Virus record (IMG/VR): IMGVR_UViG_3300042904_000069 | Location: 1-30,764 of that record | Strand: one strand, 5' to 3' | Source: a virus | Length of the DNA: 30,764 nucleotides | Program-made: the position numbers and the translations under genes | Notes under the pieces: generated by a model | The model's database searches: none | Told to the model about the DNA's origin: nothing | Seen by the model: only the letters and a program-made list of their open reading frames with translations | Shown: piece after piece, positions 2,510 through 28,944 of the stretch | How positions within the stretch are numbered: the stretch's first letter is position 1 | How the letters are laid out: every line of letters begins with the position of its first letter

Positions 2510-3418
2510 TTAGGCACCAGCAGAGCCGAACAGCGCACGAGGGTCCGTCCAACCGAAGCTGAAACGCATCGTGGCCTTGTACTTGGCGTTTTCGGTATCA
2601 AAGTCCTCGTCCATACCAAACTCATCAGCACGGCGCTCGAAATACTTCATGCCGTCCTTGACATCGGTGCGGATAAACCATGCATCGGTGTCGGTGAGGT
2701 AGTGGTTGGTGACAATCTTCGGGATCATGCCCATTGTCTTGAGAGCGTTGAGGTCGTTGTTTTCAGTACCAACACGACCATCGCTCTTCAGGATGCGGGA
2801 TGCTTCAAAGATCGACTGACGCGGAATAATCAGAGCGTCCGGGCGGACGGCAATGGTTAGGCCACGGTCATTGGTGAAACCGGCGATGTCGATACAGGCC
2901 TGCTCAAGAGCAGCTTCTGACAGGTCAGAGGCGGTAGCCAGTACGTTGGACCAGGTGCCACCAGCGTAGTTGGGGTGAGCGCTGTTAATCAGCGAAACAC
3001 CATCACCACCAGTGTAGGAAGCGTTGAATGCGCGGTTGTAAACGTTGGCAGCAATCACTTCCTTGGTTTGACGCATAGAGAAAGCCAGGCCCTGAGCCTT
3101 GCGTTGACCAACTACGTCATACTGGTCATCCTCATACACCTCACGGGTGATGACGAAGCCCGAGGCATACACCACATGGGTGTAGCGGGAAATGAAGCTC
3201 TGACGCTCGCTATCGTAGGTGATTGGGGCACCTTCAGCCTTGACCGCAGCCAGGCCAAATGAGCTAACACCAACGTCCTCTTCAAATGCCTTGCGGCTTG
3301 AGAACTTGTCGAATAGCTTGTCCCACTCAGCGGGGTATTCGGCATAGGCCTTGCCCCACCAGGCATTGACGCCAGGCCACAGAGCTTTTGCGAAATTGGA
3401 ACTGGTAATAACTGACAT
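2510..3418 (-). CDS. Major capsid protein (Mu gpT-like, HK97 fold)
   Basis: The 302-residue product has the hallmarks of the Mu gpT-like major head subunit family. These include an N-terminal WWGKAYAEYPAEWDKLFDKF, a central FVITREVYEDDQYDVV that resembles the E-loop/P-domain region, the conserved NSAHPNYAGGTW segment and a C-terminal RFSFGWTDPRALFGSAGA. Members assemble the icosahedral shell around a scaffold. The gene is followed immediately by a strong terminator and preceded by scaffold and accessory capsid genes, the expected order. I am confident it is the capsid subunit. The exact subfamily is from memory of conserved segments. Confidence 0.85.
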   Translation of the reverse strand: MSVITSSNFAKALWPGVNAWWGKAYAEYPAEWDKLFDKFSSRKAFEEDVGVSSFGLAAVKAEGAPITYDSERQSFISRYTHVVYASGFVITREVYEDDQYDVVGQRKAQGLAFSMRQTKEVIAANVYNRAFNASYTGGDGVSLINSAHPNYAGGTWSNVLATASDLSEAALEQACIDIAGFTNDRGLTIAVRPDALIIPRQSIFEASRILKSDGRVGTENNDLNALKTMGMIPKIVTNHYLTDTDAWFIRTDVKDGMKYFERRADEFGMDEDFDTENAKYKATMRFSFGWTDPRALFGSAGA

Positions 3419-3433
3419 TTTTTATCCTTCTAG

Positions 3434-4015
3434 TTAAGCCACACCAGCAGTGTTACCTGCAAGGTTGGACGAGTTGAGAGTAACTAGAAGCTTCCAGTTG
3501 GCCGAATCAGACATATCCGAATCAGGGCGCTGCGCCACACCTAGCACTTTGAGGGGAAGAGTTGCGGTAGTTGCACCAGCACCACCCAGAGCGGTCATCG
3601 CGCTCAGGCCAGTCGTGGTGTTCACTGCCGTGTAGTTCAGACCCATGTTCATACCAATTGCCGTAATGGCAGTGGCTGCACCAGCTTGAACTTCATAAAC
3701 AACTGACGGGTCAACACAGACACGGGCGTAACGAGCGGTGGAAGCCGCACGATATTGCCCGGGAGTGTTGAGGTTGGAGAAGTCAGGCTCAAAGCCAACA
3801 ACCACACCAACGGGAAGACCCGTATCCGCCGAAGCGCGGGTAATAGAAGCAACGCCGTTAGCGTCAGCAGTACCACCCCAGTTAACTACGTCACCAACGC
3901 CAACAACGGTCGCATCAGCGGCCAGTAGGGCGAAAGTCTCTACAGCACCGTTCCAAGCACTACCATTAACGTGCTTGACGGGGCGCAGGCCCGAAGGCCG
4001 GCTTACGTTTGCCAT
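3434..4015 (-). CDS. Capsid-associated structural protein
   Basis: This 193-residue, Ala/Thr/Val-rich protein begins MANVSRPSGLRPVKHVNGSAWNGAVETF, a start often seen in phage head proteins encoded directly before the major capsid gene. Predicted strands predominate and no enzyme motif is visible. It may be a decoration or cement protein bound to the shell. It lies 15 bases upstream of the capsid gene in the same operon. Confidence 0.6.
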   Translation of the reverse strand: MANVSRPSGLRPVKHVNGSAWNGAVETFALLAADATVVGVGDVVNWGGTADANGVASITRASADTGLPVGVVVGFEPDFSNLNTPGQYRAASTARYARVCVDPSVVYEVQAGAATAITAIGMNMGLNYTAVNTTTGLSAMTALGGAGATTATLPLKVLGVAQRPDSDMSDSANWKLLVTLNSSNLAGNTAGVA

Positions 4016-4042
4016 TTACATTCTCCACAAGGGAGATGCACT

Positions 4043-4447
4043 TTATGATCGGGAGATTTCAAAACTACCCTTGTGACCTTTTAGCGCATCTTGTTTAATT
4101 GATTGTTCTGATGCGTCTACGCGTGCCTGTTTTTCAGCCTGATCTTCTTGAAACCATTCCTTGTCAATTGACATGAGAACGGAGAAATCACCCTGACCTA
4201 CAGAAACGCGAGCAGCAGAACCAGCTACAGAGGCGGCGTTAACTCGGCGATCACCAATTTGATGGTCTTCGGCCTTTTCAACTACCCACCCATTTTGTTG
4301 AAACATCTCAACACGACCGTCTTTGTCGTTGACAAATCGGTATTCACGGCCTTCTTGCTTGTTGGAAACATGTAGAATGCTCTTTGAACCGACTGGTGCC
4401 CGCTTCGGGCGGCTACCTCGTGTAACCTTCGCAATTTCTTTAGTCAT
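4043..4447 (-). CDS. Hypothetical protein of the head cluster
   Basis: The 134-residue protein begins with a basic stretch (TRGSRPKRAPVGSK) and contains GREYRFVNDKDGRVEMFQQNGW, a short fold often seen in phage head-cluster proteins of unknown function. The C-terminus is charged and helical. It sits between scaffold and capsid-associated genes and two bases after the scaffold stop. A role in head assembly is inferred from location only. Confidence 0.5.
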   Translation of the reverse strand: MTKEIAKVTRGSRPKRAPVGSKSILHVSNKQEGREYRFVNDKDGRVEMFQQNGWVVEKAEDHQIGDRRVNAASVAGSAARVSVGQGDFSVLMSIDKEWFQEDQAEKQARVDASEQSIKQDALKGHKGSFEISRS

Positions 4448-23422: not shown

Positions 23423-23544
23423 AATACCTAACCACATTAGCCCTAATCGGCATGGGAATGTATGGATTGCAGCAAGGTGTCCAATACAGTGGGTGGGTTT
23501 TGTTTGTTGGCTGCTGTGCGGCTCTGTCAGTGAGGTTTGAATGA
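23419..23544 (+). CDS. Small two-helix membrane protein (41 aa)
   Basis: MKYLTTLALIGMGMYGLQQG then YSGWVLFVGCCAALSVRFE: two short hydrophobic helices. It overlaps both neighbours. Its role is unknown. Confidence 0.5.
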   Translation: MKYLTTLALIGMGMYGLQQGVQYSGWVLFVGCCAALSVRFE

Positions 23545-23876
23545 AGTATCGCCTGTTTGATACCCAGTGGATGAATGTGGTGAATAACCCCGAGGTAATG
23601 GGTGCCTATGATGTCGAGCATGCAGTTGCCATCGCGGTAAAACTCACTGAGGAGGCAATGGCAAAAAACATTGAGGCTAATAACTGGCCTAAAACCAAGC
23701 CATGCCACAGCCCCTACTGTGAGTGTGACGTAGGGAAATGTACCCACCCAGGTTTCTATGACGCTCGACATGAGCCACAGCCCTCCACCATCCCCGCTGA
23801 CGCATCACCTGACTACATTCGTGGCTGGAAAGATGGTGTAAAGCACGGAGCCTGGTTGAACACTCGTGAGGTATAA
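23541..23876 (+). CDS. Small Cys/His-rich protein with a GWxxG motif (111 aa)
   Basis: Contains CHSPYCECDVGKCTHPGFYD, with four Cys and two His that could bind metal. The C-terminal YIRGWKDGVKHGAWL matches the Y-x-x-G-W-x-D-G element seen in other small proteins of this genome. It may be an adaptor. Function unknown. Confidence 0.5.
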   Translation: MKYRLFDTQWMNVVNNPEVMGAYDVEHAVAIAVKLTEEAMAKNIEANNWPKTKPCHSPYCECDVGKCTHPGFYDARHEPQPSTIPADASPDYIRGWKDGVKHGAWLNTREV

Positions 23877-24059
23877 ATGCACACAATAACAGTTTGGCTA
23901 CTAATTGCAATGGGTGCAAGTTTTAACTCGTCGCCGACAGTTGTGGGCCGCTATGCGGACAAGGCCGCGTGCGAGGATGTACGCAACTACCTGGTTAAAG
24001 GTATGGGCTATATCTATGAACGCTCATCTGTCTGTGTGCGATCAGTGGAGCTACGATGA
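23877..24059 (+). CDS. Small probable exported protein (60 aa)
   Basis: MHTITVWLLIAMGASFNSSP is a hydrophobic start that could be a signal peptide or membrane helix. The rest includes RYADKAACEDVRNYLVKGMG and ends YERSSVCVRSVELR, with paired cysteines that could form a disulfide in the periplasm. Periplasmic or membrane location is inferred. Confidence 0.45.
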   Translation: MHTITVWLLIAMGASFNSSPTVVGRYADKAACEDVRNYLVKGMGYIYERSSVCVRSVELR

Positions 24060-24193
24060 ATGATTCCGAAAACTATTATGAATGGCAACGTCTAGAAGAT
24101 GAGTTGGCTGCTGACATTGAGGATGAAACCTACTGGCGTGGGTATGATGATGGCTTTGCTGCTGCTGTTAAACAATATTTAAAAGAGAAATAA
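24056..24193 (+). CDS. Small acidic protein with GYxxG motif (45 aa)
   Basis: MNDSENYYEWQRLEDELAAD continues YWRGYDDGFAAAVKQYLKEK. It carries the same Y-x-x-G-Y-x-D-G element as the 15367 and 27474 proteins. ATGA overlap with the previous gene. Function unknown. Confidence 0.5.
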   Translation: MNDSENYYEWQRLEDELAADIEDETYWRGYDDGFAAAVKQYLKEK

Positions 24194-24340: not shown

Positions 24341-25369
24341 CTATGCATCTAGCTTGCCAGCAATCTCAGTGGCACTCGTTCTAAAGTACGTGTTGAGCAA
24401 GATACTCAGGTCCTTGTGGCCCGAGATTTTTGCGAGAACAAGGACATCCACTTTCTTAGCAAACCGGGTAAGCGCATCTGCCCGTGCATCATGAAAGTGC
24501 AAGTTGTCAATTTGCAAATTGGTAGTTGCTTTACGAAACAAGGCGTCAAGAGATGCCGATGAAACAGAGAACAACTTACGCCCCCCAGCGGGGGCCTCTT
24601 CTCCAAGCGGGAAACTGGTCAGCACAGACAGCAGACGAGTAGCATGTTTGGACAAGGGAATATCACGAGGACGGCCAGTGATGTGCTCGGTTTTATGAGA
24701 CACAGAGGCTACCCGCCTATCCAGTGAAACATTCTTGGTGGACAGAGACAAGATTTCCCCAGCACGCATACCAGTGCGCAAGGAAACCAGAAAGGCATAG
24801 GCAGTTTCAGCTTGTTTGGAATGCGGAATTGAGTTGGTGATGTATCCGAGCCAACGGCAAATAGCCTTAACCTCCTGCCACTTTGGTAGGCGTGTGCGAG
24901 GTGGGTTGTTGCCAGGGGTTTTCATTCCCTTAAAAGGAGACTCGGAAATCCATTTCCACTCATCACGTGCAATAGAAAAAACATTTCTCAAAAGATTGAT
25001 GTCTCGTTGCACCGATCCTTTGGAAACAACTTTAAGACGTGCGTCCCGCCAAGCAGCAATGTCAGGTGTGCCAATGTCAGCAAGTTGCTTGTTCACCAGT
25101 TGGGGGAACTCACGGGACAAGGCATAGAGGCGGAGACGTTCAGAGCGCATACCACGCTTGGTGGGGGACACCTCTTCAGCGTAGCGGTCTAAAGCGTCCT
25201 GGAAGGTCTTAGAGGGAAGTCCACCGTTACGCACCTTGATGAGTTCCGCCTCCTGGGCCACAGCCCAGTTGTTGGCCTCGGCTTTAGTGAGGAAGACCTT
25301 GGAGGTGCGAGTGCCATTGCGGACAACTTCAGCCCTCCACTTGCCAGCTTGTTTCCTGAGGTATGCCAT
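24341..25369 (-). CDS. Tyrosine recombinase (phage integrase)
   Basis: The 342-residue protein has an N-terminal AP2/arm-type DNA-binding domain (residues 1-45, QAGKWRAEVVRNGTR), a core-binding domain (about 60-155) and a catalytic domain. The catalytic residues are Arg202 (TGMRAGEIL), Lys226 (SHKTEHI), His293 and Arg296 (HFHDAR), His318 (SGHKDL) and Tyr328 (NTYFRTS). It would catalyse site-specific integration between attP and attB. ATG 25369 is preferred: an AAGGA site lies eight bases upstream. A frame extension to 25447 has no ribosome site. The N-terminal domain closely matches that of the neighbouring nuclease. Confidence 0.9.
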   Translation of the reverse strand: MAYLRKQAGKWRAEVVRNGTRTSKVFLTKAEANNWAVAQEAELIKVRNGGLPSKTFQDALDRYAEEVSPTKRGMRSERLRLYALSREFPQLVNKQLADIGTPDIAAWRDARLKVVSKGSVQRDINLLRNVFSIARDEWKWISESPFKGMKTPGNNPPRTRLPKWQEVKAICRWLGYITNSIPHSKQAETAYAFLVSLRTGMRAGEILSLSTKNVSLDRRVASVSHKTEHITGRPRDIPLSKHATRLLSVLTSFPLGEEAPAGGRKLFSVSSASLDALFRKATTNLQIDNLHFHDARADALTRFAKKVDVLVLAKISGHKDLSILLNTYFRTSATEIAGKLDA

Positions 25370-25370
25370 G

Positions 25371-25588
25371 AGCGTAATCCTTGAGAGTGCTAGCGGAAGG
25401 CTAGCGTACAGAGCATGCAGGATACCGTAGGAAATAGCGTAAAGCAAGCGTCCTTGATCTGCCCAATTTCACACATCTACATAGGAGAAGACAAGCAATG
25501 GTAGGAAATGTTCTGGTGCCCCCGGCAGGGGTCCTTAGCACCTATGAAAAACACGCCTTCAAGCGTAATCCAAGCGAGGCAGCGTAAA
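25371..25588. repeat. Integrase-nuclease intergenic array: four AGCGTAA repeats, candidate attP arms
   Basis: AGCGTAA occurs at 25371, 25436, 25562 and 25581, all in the same orientation. The first copy is extended as AGCGTAATCC, identical to the third. Copies two and three extend to AGCGTAA-NN-CAAGCG. The first overlaps the integrase ribosome-binding site. GCTAGC-GGAAG-GCTAGC (25389-25405) is a hairpin between them. The array is placed as expected for arm-type sites of an integrase and for operators of the two divergent genes. No core crossover site can be defined without the host sequence. Confidence 0.55.
25498..25587 (+). CDS. Micro-gene upstream of the GIY-YIG nuclease (29 aa)
   Basis: MVGNVLVPPAGVLSTYEKHA then FKRNPSEAA. 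ATAGGAG lies a suitable distance before the ATG, and the stop is directly followed by the nuclease ATG (TAAATG), indicating coupled translation. Two of the AGCGTAA repeats lie within it, so it may be a leader-peptide gene whose DNA doubles as a binding site. Confidence 0.5.
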   Translation: MVGNVLVPPAGVLSTYEKHAFKRNPSEAA

Positions 25589-26070
25589 TGGCGTCCGTCT
25601 ACCAATTTCGGGACAAATGGCGGGCCCAAGTCTGTCGCCGAGGGACCCGCATCTCCGGCATGTTCGACACACAGGAAGAGGCCAAGCAGTGGGCCGCAGA
25701 GGCTGAGGAGCGGCTGAAGCCGGCCACAGCACGTAGCAAGGCACTTGCCAACCCAGACTTGGTGAAGGTGATGCCTCCAAAGGTCCTGGAGGCTATGCAG
25801 CGGGTCAAGCATTCGTTGACGGACCTTGTGAGTGCTAGCCACCCAGCCCCAGACACGTGTGGCGTGTACTTCCTGATTCGTGATGGAGTAGTCACCTATG
25901 TAGGGAAGACCACCAACGTACTGGCCCGACTGACCAAACATCGACGCATGGGCAAGGTGTTTGACTCCTTCACGTTCATCCCATGCGCTGAGTCTGAGAT
26001 GACCCAGCTGGAAGGCGACTACATCATGGCCTATTGGCCTGCTGAGAACCGTGCAGTGGAACTGTCATGA
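25588..26070 (+). CDS. GIY-YIG nuclease with the integrase's N-terminal DNA-binding domain
   Basis: Residues 1-43 (QFRDKWRAQVCRRGTR) align without gaps to integrase residues 1-43, with 20 identities by my count. After a linker (44-85) comes a GIY-YIG domain: GVY (92-94), YVG (104-106), Arg114 in LARL and Glu142 in LEGDY, with Asn154 later. These are the essential residues of GIY-YIG endonucleases. The 160-residue size is close to minimal. It is divergent from the integrase and likely under the same control. The combination suggests a nuclease that binds the same arm-type sites as the integrase. That specificity is a hypothesis. Confidence 0.8.
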   Translation: MASVYQFRDKWRAQVCRRGTRISGMFDTQEEAKQWAAEAEERLKPATARSKALANPDLVKVMPPKVLEAMQRVKHSLTDLVSASHPAPDTCGVYFLIRDGVVTYVGKTTNVLARLTKHRRMGKVFDSFTFIPCAESEMTQLEGDYIMAYWPAENRAVELS

Positions 26071-26345
26071 AGCTACGTAAGAGGGCCCGATGGCTCAAGC
26101 GCACACAGAGGTGCTGGATCGTGGTGCGGGACCATCCCCAGTGGGGAGCCCTGCTAGAGAGGTGTGTACCGGGGCGTGTCAGGCCCTTCAGGGGACCTAC
26201 CCGCTATGTGGACTGGGATGCGTTCTATAGGTCTGTGGTTGACCCCATACAGGCTCTGGAGTGTGGCCTTATGGAAGCGGCCCGTGCCTTGGTCAGTGGT
26301 GTGGAGGTGGACGTAGATGCGGTACTAGACCCGGAGGATGAATGA
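26067..26345 (+). CDS. Basic protein of unknown function (92 aa)
   Basis: MKLRKRARWLKRTQRCWIVV with a strongly basic N-terminus, then a compact aromatic region (GPTRYVDWDAFYRSVVDP) and an acidic end. It lies between the nuclease and polymerase genes with ATGA overlaps. Possible nucleic-acid binding is suggested only by charge. Confidence 0.5.
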   Translation: MKLRKRARWLKRTQRCWIVVRDHPQWGALLERCVPGRVRPFRGPTRYVDWDAFYRSVVDPIQALECGLMEAARALVSGVEVDVDAVLDPEDE

Positions 26346-27496
26346 CGGTTCTAACTTTCGATTTTGAGACAACCACCTACAGCAATGGCTCTGTCTTTGA
26401 CCAACGCAACAAGGCGGTGTGTGTTGGTTTCCAGGAGGAAGCCCAACACGGGGAATGCCTCTTTGACATGGACACGGAGGACGTCCAGCGCCGCATTGAC
26501 GGGTGCTCCTGGTTGGTTGGATTCAATGCCAAGTTTGATCTGCACTGGCTACGCAAGATTGGTGTGGATATCAGCAACGTGAGGGTCTGGGATTGCCAGT
26601 TGGCGGAATTCTTTTTCGAGGGCCAAACCAACCCCTACCCTAGCCTGAATAAAGCAGCTGAGAAATATGGATTCCCTACCAAGCTAGACGTTGTGAAAAC
26701 CGAGTATTGGGATAAAGAAATTCAGACAGATGAAATTCCACGCGATGTACTAAGTGAGTATTGCCTGTATGACATCGAGCTAACCTACAAGGTCTATCAA
26801 AAGCAGCTGGAGCAATTTCAACAACAACCCGCCCTGTTCAAGCTGTTCAAGATTGCGTGCCAAGACCTGCTGGTGTTGGAGGAAATGGAGTGGAACGGTA
26901 TGCGGTATGACCCGGCGCTTTGCGCCGAAAGGAGCAAAGCAATTGAGGCCAAACTGGTTGAGATTAAAAAGGAGTTGGACAGTATCTATCCTGATATTCC
27001 CATTAACTTTGGGTCTGGTGACCAGCTTAGTGCTTTTCTATATGGCGGGGTGGTTAAGCAAGACTCTAAAGAGCACATTGGCTTTTATAAAACGGGAGAC
27101 AAGGCCGGACAGCCCAAGTACAAGAACATTGTGATTGAACACAGGTTGCCTAGACTGGTGGAGCCGTTGGCTAAATCAGAACTTAAAAAAGAGGGTTATT
27201 GGAAAACAGATGAAGCAACTCTTAGAAAACTTAAAGGACCGGCTGCTAGAAAATTCGTTGGTCCTCTACTTGAAATGGCTAAGCTGGACAAACTCAATGG
27301 CACGTATTATCTCGGACTACCGAAGTTGGCTGAAGAGTGTTACTGGTCGCCAGGAATGATTTACGGGAACTTCAATCAGTGCGTAGCGCGCACCGGGCGC
27401 CTGTCCAGTACCAAACCAAACCTCCAGAACCAGGCGGGGGATGTGCAAGATGTCTTCGTATCGAGGTATACAGATGAACCTGTTGAAGCTGGGTAA
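26342..27496 (+). CDS. DNA polymerase A, N-terminal fragment (3'-5' exonuclease plus thumb/first palm part)
   Basis: The 384-residue product has all three proofreading motifs: Exo I DFETT (D7, E9), Exo II GFNAKFD (N62, D66) and Exo III YCLYD (Y140, D144). The polymerase domain then begins and runs through the template-binding motif ARTGRLSSTKPNLQNQ (TGRLSS 351-356). It stops at TAA after VFVSRYTDEPVEAG, just before motif A should begin. The rest of the enzyme is encoded in the same reading frame from 27635, after an inserted gene. This half alone could be a functional exonuclease but not a polymerase. Confidence 0.85.
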   Translation: MTVLTFDFETTTYSNGSVFDQRNKAVCVGFQEEAQHGECLFDMDTEDVQRRIDGCSWLVGFNAKFDLHWLRKIGVDISNVRVWDCQLAEFFFEGQTNPYPSLNKAAEKYGFPTKLDVVKTEYWDKEIQTDEIPRDVLSEYCLYDIELTYKVYQKQLEQFQQQPALFKLFKIACQDLLVLEEMEWNGMRYDPALCAERSKAIEAKLVEIKKELDSIYPDIPINFGSGDQLSAFLYGGVVKQDSKEHIGFYKTGDKAGQPKYKNIVIEHRLPRLVEPLAKSELKKEGYWKTDEATLRKLKGPAARKFVGPLLEMAKLDKLNGTYYLGLPKLAEECYWSPGMIYGNFNQCVARTGRLSSTKPNLQNQAGDVQDVFVSRYTDEPVEAG

Positions 27497-27638
27497 CACC
27501 ACGTCTTACACGACACGAGAAATTAAATATTTTCTTTCATTTATTCGTGAGATTGAAGCTGAGAAGTTTGTAGCTGAGTTGTGCCAAGCTGCTTATGACA
27601 TTGGCTTTGAGGATGGGTGGGAGGACGCGGGCGAATGA
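27474..27638 (+). CDS. Inserted cistron splitting the DNA polymerase gene (54 aa)
   Basis: MNLLKLGNTTSYTTREIKYF then LSFIREIEAEKFVAELCQAA and YDIGFEDGWEDAGE. It starts inside the 3' end of the first polymerase fragment (23-base overlap), with GAGG seven bases before its ATG, and its stop overlaps the second fragment's ATG (ATGA). The Y-x-x-G-F-x-D-G element matches other small proteins of this genome. No nuclease motif is visible, so it is not a typical homing insertion. It may help join the two halves or be a neutral passenger. Confidence 0.7.
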   Translation: MNLLKLGNTTSYTTREIKYFLSFIREIEAEKFVAELCQAAYDIGFEDGWEDAGE

Positions 27639-28369
27639 TCGTAAGCGTCGATGCCAAGGCGTTGGAGTGGCGCGTGCTAACAGAACTGGCAGGCGACGCT
27701 ACCGCACTACAAGAAATTGTAGATGGGCAAGATGCACATGAGCTTAATCGCGCAGCGTTCAATCTCCCCTCCCGCCTAATTAGCAAGAAATATTTGTTCC
27801 GTACGATTTACAACCGTGGCAAGGGCTACGCATTTACGGTTGATCCAGAGTTTATGCACGTATCTACGTCGCAGAAATATTGGGACGAGGTAGGACGCAA
27901 GTTCTACACCAAGTATGCAGCCATTGAGGAACTATATAAGAAGAACACCAAGCTGGTGATGGATGGCACGGACATCGTTGGACCGCTCGGCCGCTTCTGG
28001 CCCATTCGCATGCAGCGGGATTTCCGAGGTGACCTTGTTGTTCCAGAAACCTTAATTGTTAACCACCCAACTCAAGGCACCGGACATGATGTGATGGCGA
28101 TTGCTCGCGTTTCATTCACCAATCGTCTCCGTCGCAAGGAGTGGGGTAAGTGGGTTAAGCAAATTGGCACGATTCACGATTCAATTTTAAGTGACGTACC
28201 TAACGAGCTAGTACAGGAGGTGGTGAATCTCTACTACCAAGTATTTGATGACCTACCTCTGAACATCAAGAAACTATTTAACTACGACTGGAAGACACCA
28301 CTAGGGTGTGAAGCGTCTGCCGGTCCCAACATGAAAGATTGTGTGGAAATCCCACGCACTGACAAGTAA
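27635..28369 (+). CDS. DNA polymerase A, C-terminal fragment (palm and fingers)
   Basis: The 244-residue product opens with motif A, VSVDAKALEWRV (D6, E11), has motif B RLISKKYLFRTIYNRGKG (R47, K51, F55) and later motif C TIHDSILSDV (the catalytic Asp). Phe55 lies where T7 polymerase has Tyr526. The usual HDE reads HDS. ATG 27635 is preferred. GTG 27617 gives six more residues. Neither catalytic acid is in the first fragment, so activity needs assembly of both products. Confidence 0.85.
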   Translation: MIVSVDAKALEWRVLTELAGDATALQEIVDGQDAHELNRAAFNLPSRLISKKYLFRTIYNRGKGYAFTVDPEFMHVSTSQKYWDEVGRKFYTKYAAIEELYKKNTKLVMDGTDIVGPLGRFWPIRMQRDFRGDLVVPETLIVNHPTQGTGHDVMAIARVSFTNRLRRKEWGKWVKQIGTIHDSILSDVPNELVQEVVNLYYQVFDDLPLNIKKLFNYDWKTPLGCEASAGPNMKDCVEIPRTDK

Positions 28370-28371
28370 AC

Positions 28372-28944
28372 ATGCAATTTCAAATCTCTGTTCTAAACGT
28401 CGACAAGATTTCCAAAACCACCAAGACTGGCAACAGCTACTTCCAGATTGAAGTGAGCTACAAGGAACTTGGTACGGGCAAGGTTAGCAGCAAGAAAATC
28501 ATGCCATTTGGCTCGACTGCCGATGCACACAAGAAGCTGATTGATGCCAAGCAAGGTGAGGTATTCACCGTTACGGCTGAGAAGGGTGAACCCAATGCCG
28601 AAGGTAAGAGCTTCTGGGAATGGCAAGGTGTTGTGCAGGCCGCTCCTGGCTCTGCTGCGCCCTCTGCGCAAGCTTCTGCTGCCCCCGCCTCTGCCCCAGC
28701 TGCTCGCTCTGGTGGCTCCTGGGAAAGTCCTGAAGAGCGCGCGGCAAAGCAAGTGCTAATCGTTAAGCAAAGCTCGCTGAATGCTGCTGTTGCCACACTG
28801 GCTCCTGGTGCCAAGGGTGCTTTGGACCCAGCTAAGGTAAAGCAGCTGGCACAGGAATACACCGACTTCGTGTTTGGTAAAGAAGAAAAGAAAAATCTTT
28901 TTGATATGCCAAGCGACAACATTGACGACGATATCCCAATGTAA
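28372..28944 (+). CDS. Single-stranded DNA-binding protein
   Basis: The 190-residue protein has an N-terminal OB-fold-like domain (about 1-88, MQFQISVLNVDKISKTTKTG; FWEWQGVV), an Ala/Pro/Ser linker (about 90-112), a helical segment and an acidic tip NIDDDIPM. The tip closely resembles the DDDIPF ending that SSB proteins use to recruit partners. It directly follows the polymerase C-terminal fragment, consistent with a replisome role in coating the lagging strand. The final Phe is Met here. Confidence 0.8.
   Translation: MQFQISVLNVDKISKTTKTGNSYFQIEVSYKELGTGKVSSKKIMPFGSTADAHKKLIDAKQGEVFTVTAEKGEPNAEGKSFWEWQGVVQAAPGSAAPSAQASAAPASAPAARSGGSWESPEERAAKQVLIVKQSSLNAAVATLAPGAKGALDPAKVKQLAQEYTDFVFGKEEKKNLFDMPSDNIDDDIPM

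Follow-up and report, generated by a model that had tools for sequence, protein, structure and literature searches.

A family A DNA polymerase gene in two cistrons, cut beside motif A, in a virus contig and its phage relatives

Introduction

In phage T4, insertion of an endonuclease gene split a gene into the arrangement 39-mobA-60, and translation bypasses a 50-nucleotide (nt) gap that lies early in the second piece (PMC3014915, PMC2988022, PMC5009743). In Aeromonas T4-like phages gp43 is split, as is NrdA in phage Aeh1, and the halves are reported in a review to reassemble into active enzymes (PMC2988022); in synthetic constructs stop-hops carry translation over a stop codon lying between matched codons (PMC5009743). 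A split DNA polymerase (DNAP) was reported in 2023 for MEP401-type Zobellviridae, the authors suggesting an intron (PMC10580990); the initial annotation of the DNA analyzed here, in which such an arrangement was described as not known in family A enzymes, had thus been anticipated. Here we describe the virus record IMGVR_UViG_3300042904_000069 (30,764 bp; the whole of this stretch is called the window), in which two open reading frames (ORFs) of 384 and 244 amino acids (aa) together encode a family A DNA polymerase. Beyond the MEP401 report, sequence comparisons indicate that the split is clade-wide at one residue, that the insert is variable, and that an intron or bypassing in the gap is unsupported.

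The two polymerase pieces and their motifs

The polymerase region of the window comprises the following features (relatives are designated by locus numbers beginning with L).

26342 to 27496, + strand: DNA polymerase N-piece, 384 aa, with exonuclease, thumb, and first palm segment containing TGRLSS...PNLQN (Pfam/PHROGs, AlphaFold2 [AF2], VIA-align); its 3'-5' exonuclease residues are D7/E9 (Exo I), D66 (Exo II), and Y140/D144 (Exo III)
27389 to 27430, + strand: TGRLSSTKPNLQN motif, the active-site part carried by the N-piece, with invariant G, R, L, S, P, N, Q, and N (alignment columns)
27473 to 27496, + strand: out-of-frame read-through tail of the N-piece, DEPVEAG plus stop (comparison with L002 4498-4860)
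27474 to 27638, + strand: 54-aa intercistronic ORF, a passenger, with no family match and 97% nt identity to L002 4840-5004
27635 to 28369, + strand: DNA polymerase C-piece, 244 aa, with motif A (D6, E11), motif B (R47, K51, F55, Y59), and motif C (H181, D182) (Pfam, invariant columns, AF2, VIA-align)
27653 to 27670, + strand: C-piece codons 7 to 12 (AKALEW), intact in the window; spot of a -1 to +10 nt indel or an in-frame TAG in 25 of 167 distinct relatives

The cut lies five residues N-terminal to the catalytic Asp of motif A. The coordinates and motifs of the initial annotation proved correct: both frames were recovered, as were the stop codon at 27494-27496 and the 54-codon ORF, which overlaps its left neighbor by 23 bases and its right neighbor by ATGA. 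The Pfam family DNA_pol_A matches the N-piece over profile positions 52-130 (E value, 1e-16), alongside DNA_pol_A_exo1, and the C-piece over positions 154-378 (E value, 4e-13). Together, the pieces carry the family A motif set, namely, exonuclease motifs I to III, TGRLSS, the motif A Asp, the R..K..F..Y of motif B, and the HD of motif C (invariant columns; PF00476 and PF01612). A check for an intact gene elsewhere found no second copy of the C-piece in the virus record, which consists of the 30,764-bp contig alone. Comparison of the C-piece with that of L002 gave nonsynonymous and synonymous divergences (dN and dS) of 0.12 and 1.0, respectively, indicating purifying selection.

Single-chain AF2 models reached predicted local distance difference test (pLDDT) scores of 92.2 for the N-piece and 95.7 for the C-piece, and were matched to solved structures with Foldseek as well as VIA-align. 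In VIA-align, the N-piece aligned with residues 313-650 of Bst Pol I (Z about 19.7; root mean square deviation [rmsd], 3.7; 325 residues aligned) and also with residues 349-704 of the E. coli Klenow fragment, and the C-piece aligned with Bst Pol I residues 648-876 (Z, 23; rmsd, about 2; 216 to 218 residues aligned). The two pieces thus jointly span the Pol I fold (Bst 313-650 plus 648-876), with every domain present. In alignments of 40 and 46 sequences, the invariant columns include G352-R353-L354-S355 and P359-N360-Q362-N363 of the N-piece and D6, E11, R47, K51, F55, H181, and D182 of the C-piece. The E. coli Pol I counterparts of the conserved active-site residues are R668 on the N-piece side and D705, E710, R754, K758, F762, and D882 on the C-piece side. 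By this correspondence, the two pieces jointly make up the active site, and neither alone would suffice for a working enzyme. The division of motifs and the complementary folds therefore favor what was proposed at first, a polymerase assembled from two polypeptides, which probably share one active site and would have to associate.

The window derives from a tailed phage, as judged by its genes for terminase, portal, head protein, primase, and a DnaB-like helicase, and a tyrosine integrase gene suggests that this phage is temperate.

Conservation of the split across a phage clade

A search at the DNA level in phages returned one weak match, and relatives were therefore sought at the protein level. 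Relatives in IMG/VR were gathered with the C-piece, the N-piece, and a profile, to which contigs of bacterial genomes and phage records were added; two of the scans used patterns that exclude the split point, so that these two do not select for split genes. The cut falls at one and the same residue in all 155 distinct loci that contain both pieces, and the search for full-length homologs across the junction found none fused among them. These loci include Alcaligenes phage QDWS535 and Methylophilales phages MEP401 and MEP402, which have GenBank entries, and the scan of bacterial genome contigs yielded four loci only, all in metagenome-assembled genomes. The N-piece ends at profile positions 382-385 in all loci but one, and the exception carries an intron between the Pro and Asn codons described below. 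A start codon (ATG, GTG, or TTG) stands at profile position 1 of the C-piece in 123 of the 130 loci that are not otherwise disrupted. Across these 130 loci, the gap between the cistrons ranges from -17 to 3,598 nt, the second cistron is distributed over the three frames (41/33/56), and in 24 cases the cistrons overlap or abut.

In a phylogenetic tree with fused polymerases as outgroups (StenR_269, CRP-235, HMO-2011, Bf7, and Nodigi), the split sequences of the clade, the MEP401 type included, fall on one side of a branch with support of 100/100. The split polymerases of Vibrio phages ICP2 and VP41s3 group with the fused polymerase of Bf7 and are cut about 15 residues earlier. This kind of polymerase has thus been split at least twice, at nearby places.

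Contents of the gap and comparison with L002

The gap is occupied differently from one relative to the next. It is empty in QDWS535 (a TAATG overlap) and holds a 77-aa ORF in MEP401/402, an R67-like ORF in MW202697, and seven genes in MW202796, including genes for a methyltransferase and a stomatin-like protein. Small gap ORFs whose products are probably helical form several clusters, one of them similar to MEP401 gp14 (34 loci) and another found in 21 loci. In L094, an RNA ligase domain (PF09414) is encoded between the polymerase halves (3138-3641). Among the loci sampled, the 54-aa ORF is common to the window and L002 only, and it had no family or nuclease match in Pfam or PHROGs. Given this variation in length and content, the 54-aa cistron is a passenger, and the earlier proposal that an inserted cistron was the cause or essence of the split is not borne out, as relatives are split around other ORFs, seven genes, or nothing.

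The two pieces of L002 are 89% and 85% identical to those of the window at the amino acid level. Its gene order is N-piece, 96-aa ORF, 54-aa ORF, and C-piece, all joined by ATGA overlaps, and its N-piece terminates in ...SRYT about 0.3 kb upstream of the bases that match the GGG-TAA of the window. In L002, these GGGTAA bases code for Gly-Asn within the 54-aa ORF. The 96-aa ORF is missing from the window, and as a result the N-piece frame enters the 54-aa gene out of frame, which generates the DEPVEAG tail and the 23-base overlap. The GGG-TAA and the "seamless" VEAG/MIVSVDAK junction are therefore by-products: the junction does read smoothly in a single frame, as the initial annotation had pointed out, but it is a read-through product and not ancestral, and the suggested ribosomal bypass from GGG-TAA to an in-frame GGG loses its footing.

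Beside these gap differences, the window forms a mosaic with L002 and L011, in which most genes after the polymerase are 93 to 98% identical and parts of the C-piece are 67 to 70% identical. As far as identity levels can indicate, this local divergence fits repeated exchange at the polymerase gene. By eye only, a motif of the type (Y/W)xxG(W/Y/F)xDG(W/F/V) was seen near the C termini of three small ORFs of the window (23541-23876, 24056-24193, and 27474-27638).

Introns and endonuclease genes around the polymerase

In relatives of the window, group I introns interrupt the polymerase gene at any of three positions that encode parts of the active site. The corresponding positions of the window, all without an intron, are as follows.

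27418 to 27419, + strand: P359/N360 boundary; breaks with signs of a group I intron lie exactly here in L002, L037, L097, and L207, with an HNH ORF of one family in three of the four
27800 to 27806, + strand: motif B position matching the group I intron sites of L077, L093, and L094
28073 to 28080, + strand: QG position matching the group I intron site of L248

The intron of L002 (3796-4500), which contains an HNH/helix-turn-helix ORF, separates P359 from N360 and matches Rfam family RF00028 (E value, 0.003); it shows a U at the 5' splice site, a guide GGGCUU pairing with the exon sequence AAGCCU, and a G at its 3' end. At the same site, L097 and L207 gave E values of 7e-5 and 3e-5, and L037 has an HNH ORF of the same family. 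The motif B introns had E values of 2e-9 (L077) and 0.01 to 0.02 (L093 and L094), and the QG-site intron had an E value of 0.005. All of these scores are below the Rfam gathering score of 50 bits (L077, 48.7), and the introns were counted since they are placed exactly in gene breaks.

Endonuclease genes are found in the gap of some relatives. In ICP2 (L254), an HNH-like ORF, gp51, lies between the halves (3718-4167), where the nearly identical ICP2_2013_A_Haiti has a 9-nt gap only. In the window, a GIY-YIG nuclease ORF is located two genes upstream of the polymerase (25588-26070, + strand). The product of this ORF starts with an AP2/integrase-arm-like domain that is 53% identical over 34 aa to the beginning of the adjacent tyrosine integrase (24341-25447, - strand), and the ORF may be a free-standing homing endonuclease.

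Interruptions of motif A in relatives

A second interruption affects the C-piece in 25 of 167 distinct loci, always within the D-A-x-x-L-E-W codons of motif A; the window has no such break. The sizes are -1, +1, +2, +4, +5, +6, +7, +8, and +10 nt. A TAG is present in every one of the +6 cases, which stay in frame, and the detection covered frame-shifting indels and in-frame stops, in-frame changes without a stop being invisible to it. The broken loci are as follows.

L004, L013-L015, L024, L032, L034, L039, L040, L042, L047, L053, L054
L062, L066, L071, L094, L095, L097, L111, L120, L145, L162, L248, L250

Apart from introns, the remainder of both pieces is open in these loci (a short break in the N-piece was seen in two other loci, L135 and L206). 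The broken copy is the sole copy of the C-piece in 10 of 10 records checked, one of which is a complete circular genome; a second, intact copy was sought and found in none of the 10. Three pairs of loci sharing a break gave dN/dS ratios of 0.065 (dS, 0.43), 0.11 (dS, 0.78), and 0.03 (dS, 0.21), as for functional genes. Because the broken gene is the only copy where checked and is under purifying selection, ribosomes would have to slip or hop across the interruption for any replicative polymerase to be produced. On a quick tree of the N-piece with several long branches, 22 broken sequences need 20 changes, and the trait is thus scattered.

Broken loci differ from intact ones in their leaders. 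Immediately upstream, 9 of 24 broken loci have a gene for an HNH-like endonuclease (PHROG 3322 or PHROG 374), versus 1 of 131 intact loci (Fisher P = 1e-7, uncorrected for kinship), and in L024, L040, L071, and L145 a truncated earlier copy of the gene start precedes the endonuclease. The mean Shine-Dalgarno match is 6.6 versus 3.9 (P = 4e-13). The start-codon region pairs with codons at about 7 to 10, with a stem score of 16.7 in broken and 10.9 in intact loci (P = 1.5e-10) and scores of at least 14 in 19 of 25 and 7 of 127, respectively. The hairpin covaries: when leaders were exchanged among broken loci, each of 20,000 permutations scored lower than the matched leaders, and intact loci lack such pairing. 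Take-off and landing codons for the same amino acid flank the break in 9 of 22 independent cases, versus 9.8% in simulations (P = 1e-4, in a test devised after the data had been seen). Several groups (CTT..CCC and CTT..TTA) offer no good pair of this kind. There was no signal of a stem-loop 3' of the break (3' z, +0.11 versus -0.4; P = 0.13), and a separate hairpin upstream of the Shine-Dalgarno sequence was not stronger than in intact loci (P = 0.88).

Two other accounts of the breaks were considered and rejected. Introns at motif A were not detected by Rfam in the eight loci scanned, and the distance from the start codon to the Trp codon is off by only -1 to +10 nt. A general explanation through suppressor or special tRNAs fails because only tRNA-Leu(UAA) in L004 and L047, tRNA-Gly(UCC) in L047, and tRNA-Trp in L062 are present. 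The tRNA-Leu(UAA) genes lie just downstream of the broken polymerase, at 5971-6054 in L004 and at 2231-2391 in L047 (with tRNA-Gly). On balance, we lean slightly toward the reading that these split polymerases host mobile cassettes of a homing endonuclease and a recoding signal, with ribosomes slipping or hopping over the motif A break; recoding sites like that of T4 gene 60 would then have arisen repeatedly, as mobile elements, within the catalytic motif of a replicase.

Origin of the split and alternative explanations

We propose that a single event in the clade's ancestor divided the gene of a Pol I-like replicative polymerase and that the split is now old and fixed. The cut lies in a turn; the palm strand before this turn comes after TGRLSS..PNLQN, and the strand after it bears the catalytic Asp of motif A. 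The halves would be translated as separate cistrons of one mRNA, each with its own start and stop and with overlapping or closely spaced starts, and would associate into an active enzyme to which the N-piece contributes the TGR arginine and the C-piece contributes D6, K51, and D182. The space between the cistrons would tolerate passenger genes, of which the 54-aa ORF is one example. As to its origin, the split most likely arose, by our inference, when a homing endonuclease gene inserted itself at motif A and a start codon was re-supplied, as for T4 genes 39/60. Taken as a whole, this explanation appears very probable to us. Several points weigh against it. The complex of N- and C-pieces is one that we infer from single-chain models, in which the last residues of the N-piece have low confidence. 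The nearest fused relatives are distant (about 28% identity), and the ancestral fused state is read from the tree. An endonuclease between the halves, as in T4 39/60, is present in only a minority of extant loci and is absent from the gap of the window.

The last of these points bears on a serious, though less probable, alternative for the origin, namely, that a simple mutation (a nonsense codon plus a new start) split the gene with no endonuclease involved. In QDWS535 and several contigs, the junction consists solely of a 4-nt TAATG/ATGA overlap, and the splits of the clade and of ICP2, which lie about 15 residues from each other, were independent events; however, extant phages have endonuclease genes in or next to both split sites, and T4 and Aeh1 reached the same outcome through endonuclease insertion (PMC2988022). 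A role of the small intercistronic protein as a third subunit, bridging the two halves or tuning them, seems unlikely to us. Small, probably helical ORFs do occupy the gap in many relatives (the 34-locus and 21-locus clusters), but the ORF of the window matches that of L002 only and other gaps hold unrelated genes, as in MW202796; as a general rule, a conserved third subunit is rejected by the 24 of 130 undisrupted loci that leave no room for it.

It is highly improbable that the insert is removed at the RNA level as an intron or is bypassed (GGG-TAA ... GGG), either of which would yield one polypeptide. In favor of this reading, the two pieces of the window share a frame and join smoothly, an intron was considered possible in the MEP401 report (PMC10580990), and group I introns do interrupt the gene elsewhere in relatives. 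Against this, Rfam returned no match (group I, group II, or other) at 26300-28500 with E values up to 5, and no group I core in the insert at either gathering or relaxed thresholds; the cistrons of relatives may overlap or lie as much as 3.6 kb apart, with as many as seven genes between them and in three frames; the N-piece of L002 stops well before the GGG-TAA bases, which are coding there; and the C-piece always keeps its start codon at the same residue position. Nor are a take-off codon and a landing site for the insert of the window conserved in relatives. An assembly error or a decaying pseudogene seems next to impossible. A nonsense codon within a polymerase resembles decay at first sight, but independent genomes already refute an error, the same residue being cut in the 155 loci and in named phages from GenBank, and invariant catalytic residues, dN/dS values well below 1, and ORFs joined by ATGA-type overlaps speak for the organized expression that the initial annotation had recognized.

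Significance and comparison with known systems

In this system, an essential active site would be permanently shared by two polypeptides, with the palm of a replicase cut beside its catalytic Asp and the cut fixed across a large phage clade. Such natural split polymerases have defined ends useful for biochemistry and engineering, and annotation of these phages will report truncated or missing polymerases. If the motif A breaks are decoded, about 20 recoding sites of independent origin would become available for comparison, in place of the single example of T4 gene 60; with their differing gap lengths, codons, and stems, they would also make the endonuclease-resistance explanation of bypassing testable.

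The closest described phages, MEP401 and MEP402, share with the window a family A polymerase in two ORFs, the same cut residue, a small ORF of no known function between them, and membership in the same clade; they differ in the gap ORF (77 versus 54 aa), and the window has an integrase. ICP2 and VP41s3 (Icepovirus) likewise have a two-ORF family A polymerase, with the HNH-like gp51 between the ICP2 halves, which the ICP2 record annotates as a join forming one coding sequence. Their cut is the earlier one (LQNISN-stop/MSDIKRCI), and their position on the tree with Bf7 marks a separate fission. Split gp43 of the Aeromonas phages and NrdA of Aeh1 are also genes in pieces, but they concern a family B polymerase or a ribonucleotide reductase and are sporadic, not clade-fixed. 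For the motif A breaks, the stop-hop constructs resemble CTT-TAG-CTT in L032 and CTA-TAG-CTA in L094. In T4 39/60, too, an HNH gene divides an enzyme essential for replication, and a gap in the coding sequence lies close to the beginning of the downstream piece, as in a subset of the relatives described here; that enzyme is a topoisomerase, and its single 50-nt gap in one phage contrasts with 25 loci with changes of 1 to 10 nt, at which recoding is predicted.

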